DNA from: Faecalibacterium sp.
GTDB taxonomy: Bacteria > Bacillota > Clostridia > Oscillospirales > Ruminococcaceae
Direction of reading: 5' to 3'
Assembly: GCA_022652735.1 (NCBI GenBank)
Contig: JALCRP010000013.1
Location: 1-57,147, forward strand
DNA: 57,147 bases
Shown: positions 51,057 through 56,922 of the stretch, piece after piece
How positions within the stretch are numbered: position 1 is the first letter of the stretch
How the letters are laid out: each line of letters starts with the position of its first letter
Made by a program: the position numbers and the translations under genes
Notes under the pieces: generated by a model
The model's database searches: none
What the model was told of the DNA's origin: nothing
The model's input: the letters and a program-made list of their open reading frames with translations, nothing else

Positions 51057-51686
51057 ATGAAAATCGGATTTTCCGAAATCATCGTAATCATCATTGTGGC
51101 AATGGTCGTCATCGGGCCGGACAAGATGCCGGAATACGCGCGCAAGTTTGGCAAGTTGCTGACAAAGCTGCGGGATTATACGGGCGCGGCCACCAAAGAA
51201 ATGCAGGAGCCTCTGCAGCAGATTCAGAAGCCCTTGCAGGAGATCACCCAGCCGCTGAACGACATTCAAAGCACTTTGAACGGCAGCGTGGCCGACATGA
51301 CAAAGTCGATCGCCAATATCGGCGTCAAGCAGCCTTCTAAGGCAGAGAAAGCCAAGAAGGAAGCGGAAGCCGAGGAGATCGTCGAGCTGGAAGAGCTGCC
51401 CACCGCAAAGCCGGCCGAAGCCAGCGCCGCGCCGGAGGCCGTAAAACCGGCTGAAGCCCCGGCCGCACCGGAAGAGAAAAAGCCGGCCGAAGCTAAATCG
51501 AAAAAAGCCGCAGCGCCCGCCAAGGCAAAGGCTGCCGCAAAACCCACAGCCAAAAAGCCCGCCGCAAAGGCAGCGGCCAAGAAGCCTGCGGCAAAAGCCG
51601 CAAAGCCCGCCACCAAAAAGCCTGCGGCAAAAGCAAAATCCGCGGCAAAAGCCAAAGAAAAGCCTGCGGAGCCTGTACATTCTTAA
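51057..51686 (+). CDS. TatA/TatB-like Sec-independent translocase subunit with histone-H1-like tail
   Basis: A 209-residue protein. The N-terminus MKIGFSEIIV with the G20-P21 hinge, then an amphipathic helix (PDKMPEYARKFGKLL) is that of TatB, whose E. coli form also reads IGFSE. A Gln/Pro region (60-85) and an acidic part (about 95-120) follow, then about 80 residues made of Ala, Lys and Pro with AAKKPAAK-type repeats, as in histone H1. TatB tails are usually short and not like this. ATG 51057 follows AAAGGAAA. First gene of the Tat operon (TatB-like, TatA, TatC), which exports folded proteins by the twin-arginine signal. Confidence 0.86.
   Translation: MKIGFSEIIVIIIVAMVVIGPDKMPEYARKFGKLLTKLRDYTGAATKEMQEPLQQIQKPLQEITQPLNDIQSTLNGSVADMTKSIANIGVKQPSKAEKAKKEAEAEEIVELEELPTAKPAEASAAPEAVKPAEAPAAPEEKKPAEAKSKKAAAPAKAKAAAKPTAKKPAAKAAAKKPAAKAAKPATKKPAAKAKSAAKAKEKPAEPVHS
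51582..51634 (+). repeat. Short direct repeats inside the TatB-like tail
   Basis: AAGCCTGCGGCAAAAGC occurs exactly at 51582-51598 and 51618-51634, with imperfect copies around. They encode the KPAAKA units and may change length by slippage. Confidence 0.75.
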
Positions 51687-51774
51687 CCGTGAAGCAACGC
51701 CTGCAAAGGCGATGCCTATAAAGAAATTATAATGGAGCCGCGGCCGGAAAGGCTGCGCAAAAGGAGAGACTGTT

Positions 51775-52002
51775 ATGAGAGCTGGTACAATGGAGCTTCT
51801 GGTTGTCCTGATTGTTGTTTTGGTTATTTTTGGACCCAAGCAGCTGCCGAAGCTGGCAAAGATGTTTGGCAAAACGACCAAAGCCTTCAAGGATGGCATG
51901 GATAACGAAGATGAGGACGCCTCTTCCGACAAGAACGAAGCTAAGGCTGCTCCTGTTGAGGAGAAGGCCGAAGAGAAGAAAACTGAGGATAAAGCAGAAT
52001 AA
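51775..52002 (+). CDS. tatA: TatA, Sec-independent translocase pore subunit
   Basis: A 75-residue TatA: membrane helix, F-G-P hinge at FGPKQLPKLAKMFGK, amphipathic helix, and an acidic tail (EDEDASSDKNE). ATG follows AAAGGAG. The stop TAA overlaps the tatC ATG (TAATG). It forms the protein-conducting oligomer. Confidence 0.94.
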   Translation: MRAGTMELLVVLIVVLVIFGPKQLPKLAKMFGKTTKAFKDGMDNEDEDASSDKNEAKAAPVEEKAEEKKTEDKAE

Positions 52003-52823
52003 TGGCAACAACAGTCAAAAAGAATCCCGTTGCGGCCGATGGAAACGGCGGCAATATGACTCTGACCGGACATCTGAAAGAGCTCCGCAACCGGCTTTTT
52101 GTCGTAGTTGGTGTCTTTGTCGTCGTCGTGACGATCGCCTTGGCCAATGCGGAAAAAGGGGTAAATCTTCTGCTGGATATGTCGACGCAAACCACTACGC
52201 CGTATACCTTTGTCACGATTTCCCCTTCGGAAATGCTGCTGCAGTATTTTCGTATTTCTCTGATCGCCGGCGCAATCGTCGCGATCCCGTTGGCGCTGTT
52301 TGAGATCTGGGCTTTTTCCAACCCCGGTCTGAAGCGCTCGGAAAGCCTTTTCTTTGGCATGGCGCTGCTGTTTGGGCTGGCGCTGTTCGTCATCGGCGTA
52401 TTGTTCGCCTATGAGATCACGCTTCCCTTTATGCTGAACTTCCTGATTACCGTAGGTGTCGGGCAGGTAAGCTACACCCCCACCATCAGTGTGGCCGAAT
52501 ACATAAACTTCGTTATGACGATATTTATAATATTCGGCTGTGTGTTTGAAATGCCGCTTCTGTCCATCATTTTGGCGAAGCTCGGCATCGCAAGCCCGGA
52601 ACTGATGAAAAAGGGCCGCGGCGTAGCCATTGTATTGTGCTTCTTGGTTGCCGCCATCATTACTCCGCCTGATATTTTCTCGCAGATTATGGTTGCGATC
52701 CCGATGGTCTTGCTGTATCAGGTTTCCATCTGGCTTGCCGGCATCTTCTATAAGCCCAAAGCGAAAGATGACGACGAAGACGATGAGGACGACGATACCG
52801 ACGAAGACGACGCAAAAGAGTAA
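52002..52823 (+). CDS. tatC: TatC, twin-arginine signal receptor
   Basis: A 273-residue protein with six membrane helices, the first loop HLKELRNRL and the later F-E-M-P (VFEMPLL) signatures of TatC, and a strongly acidic C-terminal tail (DDDEDDEDDDTDEDD, about 255-269). It binds the twin-arginine signal peptide with TatB. The acid tail is unusual. It overlaps tatA by one base. Confidence 0.96.
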   Translation: MATTVKKNPVAADGNGGNMTLTGHLKELRNRLFVVVGVFVVVVTIALANAEKGVNLLLDMSTQTTTPYTFVTISPSEMLLQYFRISLIAGAIVAIPLALFEIWAFSNPGLKRSESLFFGMALLFGLALFVIGVLFAYEITLPFMLNFLITVGVGQVSYTPTISVAEYINFVMTIFIIFGCVFEMPLLSIILAKLGIASPELMKKGRGVAIVLCFLVAAIITPPDIFSQIMVAIPMVLLYQVSIWLAGIFYKPKAKDDDEDDEDDDTDEDDAKE

Positions 52824-54043: not shown

Positions 54044-54769
54044 TTACTGCGCGGCCGTGCCGTAATCCCGCGCGCCATAAATGGCCGTGCCAATGCGCAC
54101 GATCGTGGCGCCCTCGCGCACGGCGTTTTCGTAATCGCCGCTCATGCCCATCGAAAGCACATCCATTGCGGTATGCTCGTAGCGGCGGGCTGCCGCTTGG
54201 GCGGCAAGCTCCCGCACTGCGGCAAAAAAGGCGCGGTTGGCGGCCTCGTCGGTGCCGGCAGGGGGGATCGCCATCAGCCCGTGCACCATGATGTGCTGTG
54301 CCGCGGCGGCCGCCTCCAACAGAGGCCACAGCGCCTCAGGCGAAGCGCCGGTTTTGCTTTCCTCTTCGCCGATGTTGATTTCCAGCAGAATGCCCTGCAC
54401 AAGGCCGCGCTTTTCGGCCTCTTTGTCGATGGCCTGTAAAACGTGTACGCTGTCGACGCTTTCGATCAGCGCCGCACGGCCCAATACCTTTTTGATTTTG
54501 TTCGTCTGCAGATGGCCGATCAGGTGCGCCGGCTTGCCTAAGTAGGCCCCGGCATCAAAGTTGCGCGCCAGCTCCTGCACATGGTTTTCGCCAAACAAGT
54601 CGATCGGCAGGGCGGCGCTTGCCCGCACGGTTTGTGCCGTGCGCGTTTTGCAGGCGGCGCACAGGCGGATTTCTTCCGGACGGCGGCCGGCCTGCCGGGC
54701 CGCCGCTGCGATATGCTCCCGAATTTCGGCTACCGCCGCGGTCATGGCCTGCATTTCCGGTGTTTCCAT
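54044..54769 (-). CDS. YggS/PROSC family PLP-homeostasis protein
   Basis: A 241-residue pyridoxal-phosphate-binding protein with a TIM barrel like alanine racemase. The PLP lysine is K41 in CAACKTR; GENHVQEL, LIGHLQTNK and SMGMSGDYENAV follow, all typical. It keeps PLP levels in balance and has no known enzyme activity. ATG 54769 is four bases after the UPF0340 stop, so the two are one operon. A longer open frame at its start overlaps that gene and is not used. Confidence 0.94.
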   Translation of the reverse strand: METPEMQAMTAAVAEIREHIAAAARQAGRRPEEIRLCAACKTRTAQTVRASAALPIDLFGENHVQELARNFDAGAYLGKPAHLIGHLQTNKIKKVLGRAALIESVDSVHVLQAIDKEAEKRGLVQGILLEINIGEEESKTGASPEALWPLLEAAAAAQHIMVHGLMAIPPAGTDEAANRAFFAAVRELAAQAAARRYEHTAMDVLSMGMSGDYENAVREGATIVRIGTAIYGARDYGTAAQ

Positions 54770-54773
54770 CGCT

Positions 54774-55328
54774 TCAGGCCTCCTCGGTATATTGGGCGCG
54801 CTCGCCACCAACATATTTCGGGCGTGTGCGGGCGCAAAGCAAAATTGCCTGCCCAATGTGGTCGAGGCTGAGCCGCACCGGCACCGCCACATGTTTTAGG
54901 TGCATGCCGATCAAGGTGCCGCCAATGTCCATACCGGCCGCCGCGCGAATTTCCTCCACGGCCACAGGATGCGCAAAAGCTTTCCAGCAGGTGGTAGCCC
55001 AGCTGCCGCCCGCATGGGGCCGCGGCACCACGCATACCGGCTCATAGCCGTACTGCTCGGCAGCCGCCTGTTCCAAGATGATCGCACGGTTCAAATGCTC
55101 GCAGCACTGGGCCGCCAGATAGATGCCCTTTTGCCGTAAAACAGGGTATATGCCCGCCAGCACAGCCTCTGCGGCCTCCAAGCTCGAATCTTTGCCGATA
55201 TGCCCGCCGACAATTTCGCTCGACGAGCAGCCCACGACAAAAAGATCGCCCGCTTTCAAGTTTGCCTGCGCCAGCAGTTCCTCTGCGGCGCGGCGCGCCT
55301 GCGCGGTAATTTCTTGTGTATCCAACAT
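54774..55328 (-). CDS. UPF0340 family protein (YwlG, DUF436)
   Basis: A 184-residue protein of the UPF0340 family; the VVGCSSSEIVGGHIGK stretch and the GMDIGGTLIGMHLKHVAVPVR segment are typical. It is widely kept in Firmicutes but its role is unknown. ATG 55328 follows AAGGAG. It is upstream of YggS in the same operon. Confidence 0.92.
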   Translation of the reverse strand: MLDTQEITAQARRAAEELLAQANLKAGDLFVVGCSSSEIVGGHIGKDSSLEAAEAVLAGIYPVLRQKGIYLAAQCCEHLNRAIILEQAAAEQYGYEPVCVVPRPHAGGSWATTCWKAFAHPVAVEEIRAAAGMDIGGTLIGMHLKHVAVPVRLSLDHIGQAILLCARTRPKYVGGERAQYTEEA

Positions 55329-55462
55329 GAAACTCGCACTCCTTTTTCCTGTAAAGCGCCCCCGAAAAAGGGGCAAAAGGCGCTCACTTTTCCACTATTT
55401 ATGGCGCCGCCGTGGAAAACTCTGCGGCGGTAAACGCCAGCCCGCCGCGGTTACGCGGATAT

Positions 55463-56767
55463 TCAGGCGGTAAAATACAGGCTGCTGCCGTCGGCGTTGG
55501 CCAGCCACCAGCCGTCCTCTGTCGGGCACACGCCGGTAATGCGGCCGCGGCATCCCTCGCCTTTATAGATGGCGGTTTGCGCAATGTTGCCGTCGGCCGA
55601 AAACGCATACGCGCGCCCCAGCTGGTTTTCCGGCCGCAGCAGCCAGCCCTGCGTCATACGCGGCAGATGCATCACAATGCGGCGCAGCAGCGTGTTTTGG
55701 GCGGCGCCATCCACCCAGCTTTTTCGGCTGCCGCACACCGAAACCCATATCTCGCCGCCCTCGCCGCGGGCCAGCCCCGCAGGATACCCCGGCAGGCCGT
55801 CCAGCATCAACTTTGCCTCGCCGGCGGCCACATCCGCGCCGCGCGCCGAAGCGGCAACGCTCCATACACGATAGTTTTCGGTTTCGGAAAAATAAAGTGT
55901 CTCGCCGCTTTCGTCCAGCGCCAGCCCGCCCGCGCCCGCAATATTTTGGGCCACACAAACCGCCTTTTGGGCCGTAGGGTCATACGCATAAATCGTACCC
56001 GTGGCAGTATGGGCCAAAAGCTCCGTATCAAAAGCGTTTTCCAGCCCGTGCGCCGATGCGGGCACCGCCGAAAAATCGGCAAAGTAAACCGTGCCGTCCG
56101 GCCCGATCGTCAGCGCCGAGGGGCAGGCAAGCCGCCGCCCGTCGATTGTTGTGACAACAGGCTCTACGCTGACGGCCCAGCCATCGAACGAGGCTTTCAG
56201 CAGCGCGCCGCCGCCTGCCAGCGTACCCGAGGCGGCCGCATCCGTGAGATAAAGGGTACCGTCGGGCGCAAAGCCCAGCCCTGTGACAGCGCCGCCCGTA
56301 GAAAGCACTTCGTCCAAGCCCGTGCCGTCGGGCCGGATACGGATCACCTTGCCGCCATCCACGGCGGCGTACAAAAAGCCATCCTGCTGTACCACACAGA
56401 TGGGGTTTTGATAGGGGCTGATGTCCAGCGCCTGCGATGTGCCGGTGCTGTCGGCCGAATACTGCATGCTGTAAGCATTGGCCTCATAGCGCTGCGGCGC
56501 AAAGGCGCACGGCGCAAACAAAAGGTAGCCCGCCCAAATCACCGCCGCGCCCACCAAAACGATGCCGGCCGCCACGGAGAACCGCGTCAAAAGTGCATCC
56601 CGCGCCGCGCATGCCTGTGCATGCATTTGTGCGCGCCGACGCTCGGCGCGCTGCTGGCGCGCGCCTGTGCGGCGATACCACCGCTGGACGCGCGGAATCA
56701 CCGTCGGCCCAAAAACGATCAGCAAAATGAGCAGGATCAATAACAGCTCGGAAAAGCCCAGTTTCAT
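55463..56767 (-). CDS. TatA/B-like N-terminus joined to a strictosidine-synthase-like beta-propeller
   Basis: A 434-residue protein. Residues 1-34 (KLGFSELLLILLILLIVFGP, then IPRVQRWYRR) follow the TatA/TatB pattern: GFSE, one membrane helix, F-G-P hinge at 19-21, then a basic amphipathic helix (22-50). A second membrane helix is at about 63-84. From about 95 come YWTD/NHL-like blades of a six-bladed propeller: GLGFAPDGTLYLTDA, LTIGPDGTVYFADF, SETENYRVWSV and GYPAGLARGEGGEIWVSV, the last two typical of strictosidine-synthase-like or SMP-30 proteins. The propeller should lie outside the cell. ATG 56767 follows AAAGGGAAC. The frame runs unbroken, with no frameshift between parts. Possible lactonase, sensor or Tat-linked scaffold; I know of no described protein with this order. 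Confidence 0.7.
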   Translation of the reverse strand: MKLGFSELLLILLILLIVFGPTVIPRVQRWYRRTGARQQRAERRRAQMHAQACAARDALLTRFSVAAGIVLVGAAVIWAGYLLFAPCAFAPQRYEANAYSMQYSADSTGTSQALDISPYQNPICVVQQDGFLYAAVDGGKVIRIRPDGTGLDEVLSTGGAVTGLGFAPDGTLYLTDAAASGTLAGGGALLKASFDGWAVSVEPVVTTIDGRRLACPSALTIGPDGTVYFADFSAVPASAHGLENAFDTELLAHTATGTIYAYDPTAQKAVCVAQNIAGAGGLALDESGETLYFSETENYRVWSVAASARGADVAAGEAKLMLDGLPGYPAGLARGEGGEIWVSVCGSRKSWVDGAAQNTLLRRIVMHLPRMTQGWLLRPENQLGRAYAFSADGNIAQTAIYKGEGCRGRITGVCPTEDGWWLANADGSSLYFTA

Positions 56768-56922
56768 AAGTGTTCCCTTTCGGACAGTTCAGCCCTATGT
56801 CAGCCGGATCGCCGCGGCGGCCACGCCGGCACACAGGCCCGACAAATGGTTTGGACGCAGCAGCGGCGCCCCATCCGGGGCGAGCCGGAATCCCGCAAAA
56901 ACGAGATCCTTTCTGTGCGTTT

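Follow-up and report, generated by a model that had tools for sequence, protein, structure and literature searches.

A TatA/TatB-type helix joined to a second membrane helix and a propeller in Faecalibacterium, a candidate part of the Tat machine

The fusion gene and its predicted topology

The stretch of DNA analyzed in this study, hereafter the window, comprises 57,147 nucleotides of Faecalibacterium sequence (contig JALCRP010000013.1), and towards its end lies a gene in which a TatA/TatB-type helix of the twin-arginine translocation (Tat) system is joined to another membrane helix and to a propeller of strictosidine-synthase-like type. The gene occupies 55463-56767 on the minus strand, as judged from the open reading frame (ORF) and its homologs, and from an ATG start it encodes 434 amino acids. 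Computation establishes the fusion and its conservation, the Tat homology of the first helix, the fold of the propeller and the co-occurrence of the protein with Tat; from sequence comparison we argue further that the fusion may be an unrecognized part of the Tat machine.

All features of the gene are on the minus strand. A Shine-Dalgarno-like AAAGGGA (56774-56780, read by eye) stands 5' of the ATG, and a similar purine stretch was seen by eye just 5' of the start in most or all of 30 homologs. The first transmembrane helix (TM1; residues 2-21, 56705-56764), recognized by profile matches and shuffles and predicted to be N-out, contains an invariant G4-x-x-E7 (56747-56758), as judged from the alignment of homologs, and ends in an invariant G20-P21 at the position of the Tat hinge (56705-56710; alignment and codons). 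E7 is the counterpart of E. coli TatB Glu8, which binds TatC (PMC5201420). There follow a short basic and apparently amphipathic stretch (residues 22-35, 56663-56704; hydrophobic moment and alignment), in which this sequence keeps the Tat-like I24-P25, and a conserved basic helix (residues 42-62, 56582-56644), predicted to be cytoplasmic from the structure model and charge counts. The second transmembrane helix (TM2; residues 63-84, 56516-56581; structure model and identity) is poorly conserved and predicted to run from inside to outside, and the propeller (residues 109-434, 55466-56443), six-bladed by its matches, is predicted from profiles and the model to lie outside. In the predicted structure, helices span residues 5-33 and 42-84 and strands appear from about residue 111 onward. 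The ORF and the model agree in this with a preliminary description of the window, which had read a TatB-type helix at 2-21, a membrane helix at about 63-84 and a propeller.

In membrane proteins the positively charged residues tend to remain on the cytoplasmic side (the positive-inside rule). The loop of residues 22-62 has on average 11.1 Lys and Arg (minimum 9) and 4.1 Asp and Glu, as compared to means of 1.0 Lys and Arg in residues 1-4 and 2.2 in residues 85-110, and this distribution, taken together with the rule, therefore points to an N-terminus outside, a loop inside and a propeller outside. By charge and helix rules we infer this topology, which is consistent with the Tat orientation; the preliminary expectation that the second helix returns the chain outward, such that the propeller is displayed there, is in agreement with both the charge rule and the two-helix layout, as predicted. 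A second predicted membrane helix and a propeller set the protein apart from the single span with cytoplasmic tail by which TatA and TatB are defined, hence we speak of a Tat-derived helix and not of a TatB.

The first helix and its resemblance to TatA and TatB

A score under the TatA/TatB threshold for residues 1-50 had been named in the preliminary description as grounds for abandoning its reading; with PF02416, whose cut-off is 21, the segment in fact scores 24.6 bits. The tatB profile TIGR01410 gave 33.6 bits at best on the same 50 residues, which lies under its whole-protein cut-off of 56.5 and thus short of the equivalog score. When the first 50 residues of the homologs were compared at E <= 0.1, TIGR01410 matched 26 of the 30 and PF02416 matched 12. 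PF02416 is known for false hits through its helix (PMC2912341), for which a very low complexity z-score of -20.07 is given (PMC3217874), and therefore the Pfam match alone is insufficient and shuffled sequences and neighboring proteins were used as controls.

For these controls TatA and TatB profiles of the genus were built from 27 sequences each, gathered by a motif pattern (55 found, with one non-Tat sequence removed by eye) and thus biased towards the motif. Residues 2-21 of each of the 30 sequences were shuffled 300 times at constant composition, and for every sequence none of the 300 shuffles reached its own score with either profile. The fusions themselves scored 12.2-32.6 bits with the TatA profile and 9.2-26.9 bits with the TatB profile; the best of the pooled 9000 shuffles (12.3 and 11.6 bits, respectively) is slightly over the weakest fusions (12.2 and 9.2). 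Among 436 predicted proteins from around the gene, which include six true TatA/TatB and 22 fusions, the best that was neither Tat nor fusion scored 7.1 bits (TatA) and 5.9 bits (TatB); one fusion (locus L077), predicted in this set with a wrong start, scored 8.3 and 5.0.

A profile of the 30 N-termini, searched against 177,635 PDB sequences, returned TatB at the top (9e-5 and 4e-4) followed by TatAd (0.005), entries that are presumably the E. coli and B. subtilis proteins, and Tat proteins made up five of the eight matches up to E 10. With the window, G027 and G018 (genomes that keep Ile/Leu-Pro after the hinge) left out of the profile, all five PDB matches listed were Tat proteins, the best at 0.0045. 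A profile of the first 90 residues, run against 119 whole genomes of the family, found two fusions and eight other places, six of which were TatA or TatB. Foldseek matches of the model were taken up by the propeller.

In the alignment of the 30 full-length homologs the first 90 residues are free of gaps; within the first 30 positions M1, G4, E7, L10, I14, G20 and P21 are invariant in all 30; M1 aside, the codons of these sites change synonymously. The preliminary description had expected a conserved GFSE...FGP, of which G4, E7, G20 and P21 stand in 30/30 while F5, S6 and F19 vary, such that the family signature is better written G-x-x-E-(x12)-G-P. Mean identity is 0.59 in TM1 as compared to 0.39 in TM2 and 0.48 in the propeller. 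Of the amphipathic basic helix described after TM1, the basic loop is borne out; the mean hydrophobic moment for residues 22-35 (0.64) is like that of the TatA and TatB of the genus (0.63), but the median shuffle p is only 0.056. Pro25, part of the Tat Leu-Pro pattern, is kept in only four of the 30 (the window, G027, G018 and G010). In a quick TatC tree with a Lachnospiraceae root, the genome of the window, G027 and the G018/G017 pair sit on long, deep-lying branches that are separate from the remaining 26, and the fork at the root is open; G010, the fourth keeper of Pro25, has no settled place in this tree.

It might be argued that TM1 has no common origin with TatA/TatB and that, as an N-out helix, it has come to resemble them by convergence. 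The published false-hit problem and low complexity of PF02416 would favor this explanation, as would the scores of the fusion with that profile, which are under the cut-off for the full-length protein (19.8 bits, slightly short) and reach even E <= 0.1 in only the 12 homologs noted above. Shuffles and the N-termini of neighboring proteins nonetheless fall short of the fusion scores, the exact spacing of G4, E7, G20 and P21 is found in every member, the top PDB matches are Tat proteins, Pro25 is present in three deep-branch members and one of open placement, and the gene lies near the tat operon in eight of the 14 genomes with a measurable distance. Convergence is thus quite unlikely, and descent of TM1 from a TatA/TatB helix is well supported.

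The propeller, its distribution and its genomic setting

The propeller matches the strictosidine-synthase-like family best, with scores of 52.8 bits for SGL and 36.8 bits for Str_synth, both over the cut-offs, and an identity of 15-21% to strictosidine synthases and TGW6 over the aligned part. In SGL enzymes an Asn and an Asp from two blades bind the metal; in comparison by eye with an ordinary SGL protein (L133), the Asn position holds Gly, Ser, Ala, Thr or Pro in all 30 fusions and the Asp of the next blade is gone in all 30. The protein could in principle be an extracellular enzyme of the strictosidine-synthase/SMP-30 kind (a lactonase or an esterase) tethered to the membrane, with the helix incidental. 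We regard this as improbable, in view of the missing Asn and Asp (seen by eye) and of TM1, which it leaves unexplained; because the SGL metal-ligand positions are not kept, the propeller more probably binds a partner or acts as a scaffold than performs SMP-30-type catalysis. A search for the propeller in the absence of the Tat helix, in the 119 family genomes at E <= 1e-4, returned outside the genus only the ordinary SGL protein (G488, L133) and a weak match in G449.

The preliminary description had proposed a search for the same fusion in related genomes; of 31 genomes of Faecalibacterium, 30 proved to encode it at full length. Across 394 sampled genomes of the order, five had a match at E <= 1e-10, all of them Faecalibacterium, and the fusion was absent at this threshold from the other 389. 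Loss of the gene was considered for the one Faecalibacterium without it (G017), in which the neighboring DUF436 gene was likewise not found and whose assembly, in 330 contigs, is 89% complete; this is probably an assembly gap instead. TatC, which was searched for within the genus only, is present in 30 of the 31. The loci named from the GTDB collection are Faecalibacterium in 21 of 22 cases, the other (L082, Lachnospiraceae) being an ordinary tatB-tatA-tatC. PF02416 exceeds its cut-off in three of the 119 sampled family genomes, two of them Faecalibacterium, and this near-absence of TatA/B from the rest of the sampled family suggests either a gain of Tat in Faecalibacterium or a loss elsewhere. 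When 249 genomes of the phylum were searched with PF02416, one long frame was inspected among the matches listed, which are the strongest (G577, 361 amino acids, L135); it was rejected as a further TatA fusion, since it is an ordinary TatA next to TatC whose frame merely stays open further upstream. A 2026 paper (PMC13328260) counts Faecalibacterium among the organisms with tungsten oxidoreductases of a class for which a Tat signal, membrane spans or both are the defining features, so Tat cargo is to be expected in this genus.

In the window an ordinary tat operon lies on the plus strand, with tatB at 51057-51686 and tatC at 52002-52823, both recognized by profiles, and between them a tatA of 75 amino acids at 51775-52002 (coordinates derived from the 75-residue frame ending at 52002). 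The TatC encoded here has retained both the Thr and the Gln used for docking of TatB/TatA in E. coli. The end of tatC at 52823 accords with the 2.6 kb by which the operon had been said to be separated from the fusion gene. The genome of the window also has a second ordinary TatA (G000:C1:125166-125309, L060; 54.6 bits, 81 amino acids) apart from the operon at 51057-52823. A comparison of the distance to tatC in relatives, also proposed at the outset, gave a divided answer: both genes are present in 29 genomes, on different contigs in 15 (which yield no distance) and on one contig in 14, and in the latter they are 2.8-9.7 kb apart in eight, and thus within 10 kb as in the window, 71-136 kb apart in three and about 600-670 kb apart in three. 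Close linkage includes the genome of the window, G027 and G018. Because deep-branch genomes have this close linkage and keep Pro25, the data fit a scenario in which a neighboring gene captured the 5' part of a tat gene and the outer signature then drifted.

Gene neighbors were called by codon usage, and their families were named on the homologous locus L061 only. Next downstream in the window, in the same direction as the fusion gene, lies a DUF436/TIGR01440 gene (54774-55376, minus strand; the start may be 55328), and after it a yggS-like gene (54044-54769, minus strand). These two directly follow the fusion gene in 22 of 22 loci, and an MsbA-like ABC exporter, which is not in the window, then follows in all 21 named loci. 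On the other side a PhoB/OmpR-type response regulator is immediately divergent in 17 of the 21 named loci and the histidine kinase family is present in 20 of 21, the window ending short of both; at L061:7526-9760 and its equivalents, response regulator and histidine kinase are divergent from the fusion gene across a gap of about 200-320 bp. A pattern scan also found twin-arginine signal-like N-termini, candidate Tat substrates, near the fusion gene (L065:4338-5225, L073:17209-18492, L074:16827-18110 and L081:14561-15247).

Possible docking on TatC and comparison with known systems

E. coli TatB and TatA each have a polar residue 8 that packs against T208 and Q215 on TM5/TM6 of TatC; there, the TatB E8A substitution abolishes co-precipitation with TatC, and positions 5, 8, 12, 15 and 16 of the helix are among those that co-evolve with TatC (PMC5201420). 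These five contact positions are our choice from Table 1 of that paper, and the numbering is one lower in the fusion (4, 7, 11, 14 and 15). Three of the five, G4, E7 and I14, are invariant in the fusion, and the equivalents of T208 and Q215 are Thr and Gln in all 30 Faecalibacterium TatCs.

We therefore consider docking on TatC to be the most economical reading, because three of the five contact positions and the Thr and Gln of TatC are kept and TM1 is better conserved than TM2 or the propeller. The protein would have arisen at the base of Faecalibacterium, when the N-terminal helix of a TatA/TatB paralog was joined, via a basic cytoplasmic hairpin and TM2, to a strictosidine-synthase-like propeller. 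TM1 would insert N-out like TatA/TatB, the loop of residues 22-62 would remain in the cytoplasm, and TM2 would return the chain to place the propeller on the outer face. The buried E7, together with G4, I14 and the Gly-Pro hinge, would be kept by packing on a partner helix, most likely where TatB and TatA sit on TatC TM5/TM6. The propeller would thereby be positioned at the exit of the translocase, where it might bind folded proteins after export or otherwise handle them, or serve as an accessory receptor. Both the docking and the task of the propeller are deductions from sequence, and we put the probability of TatC docking with an exit-side role at about 0.47, or a little short of even. More tentatively, the fusion might be a further TatA-family subunit which brings its own exit-side domain to the TatC docking site, where it would receive, check or hold folded proteins as they leave.

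Several observations weigh against this proposal. A genus-wide PF02416 genome scan recovered only seven fusions at E <= 0.01, two of them over the cut-off. Three of the eight PDB matches lie outside Tat, namely two chemokine 19 entries (0.46 and 0.49) and P9 (1.9), on the basic stretch, and the remaining two of the eight family matches (G487 and G484), which cover only part of the first helix or lie beyond it, are likewise not Tat. A one-faced conserved interface on TM1, sought by conservation moment, was not significant (p 0.26-0.36). The models have low confidence for the first 50 residues, and that of the N-terminus alone is poor (predicted local distance difference test, pLDDT, 67.8; predicted template modeling score, pTM, 0.38) and has no helix break at the hinge. 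In TatC, Met205 is replaced by Ala in all 30 Faecalibacterium sequences. In the assembly of one genome (G024), which is 87% complete, the fusion is present but Tat was not found; as in G017, this is probably a gap. The co-occurrence of fusion and Tat represents one origin in one genus, and as such would fit a functional link and would not be independent support for it.

The points that remain on this side also favor a specific alternative, in which a TatA/B helix was taken as a ready N-out anchor and its contact with TatC was lost, leaving a two-pass protein that shows its propeller and perhaps acts as a binding protein alongside the divergent two-component system. In most members the Tat amphipathic helix is without its Leu-Pro, and Phe19 is lost as well; the gene is outside the tat operon, and at least 71 kb from tatC in six of the 14 genomes with both on one contig; and its constant company is DUF436, yggS and the ABC exporter, with the response regulator in most loci. 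A plain anchor, however, has no need of an invariant buried Glu together with G4, I14 and Gly-Pro in 30 of 30 members, nor would TM1 be expected to be better conserved than TM2, which adjoins the propeller. We regard reuse of the helix as a mere anchor as the main, if rather doubtful, competitor to docking on TatC.

If the fusion is indeed a further TatA-family subunit at the TatC docking site, Tat would have a trans-side partner in Faecalibacterium. A conserved TatA-family helix with an outside domain, carried by 30 of the 31 genomes of a gut genus among whose relatives TatA/B is mostly lacking, makes it possible to ask directly whether exit-side partners of Tat exist, and it provides a testable function for a near-universal Faecalibacterium protein. 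In a literature search of open-license papers, no description of a fusion of Tat helix and propeller was found among the matches listed.

The protein resembles TatB and TatA (PF02416, TIGR01410) in its N-out helix, in the same spacing of G-x-x-E and Gly-Pro and in the basic, apparently amphipathic stretch that follows; unlike them, most fusions are without the further motif of the Tat amphipathic helix, and all are under the TIGR01410 cut-off and add another membrane helix and, outside, a propeller of about 325 amino acids. TatE of E. coli, which is not known to have an outside domain, is a precedent for an extra protein of TatA-family type. It joins the TatBC receptor at TatC TM5, and TatA-type proteins are described in the same source as single-spanning (PMC5777986). 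As regards the other half of the fusion, the propeller fold is common to strictosidine synthase, TGW6 and the SMP-30 (SGL) enzymes, those being soluble enzymes. APMAP similarly displays a six-bladed propeller of strictosidine-synthase-like type on the outside of the cell from a membrane anchor (PMC3217874), but it does so by one type II anchor in place of the Tat helix and hairpin of the Faecalibacterium fusion.
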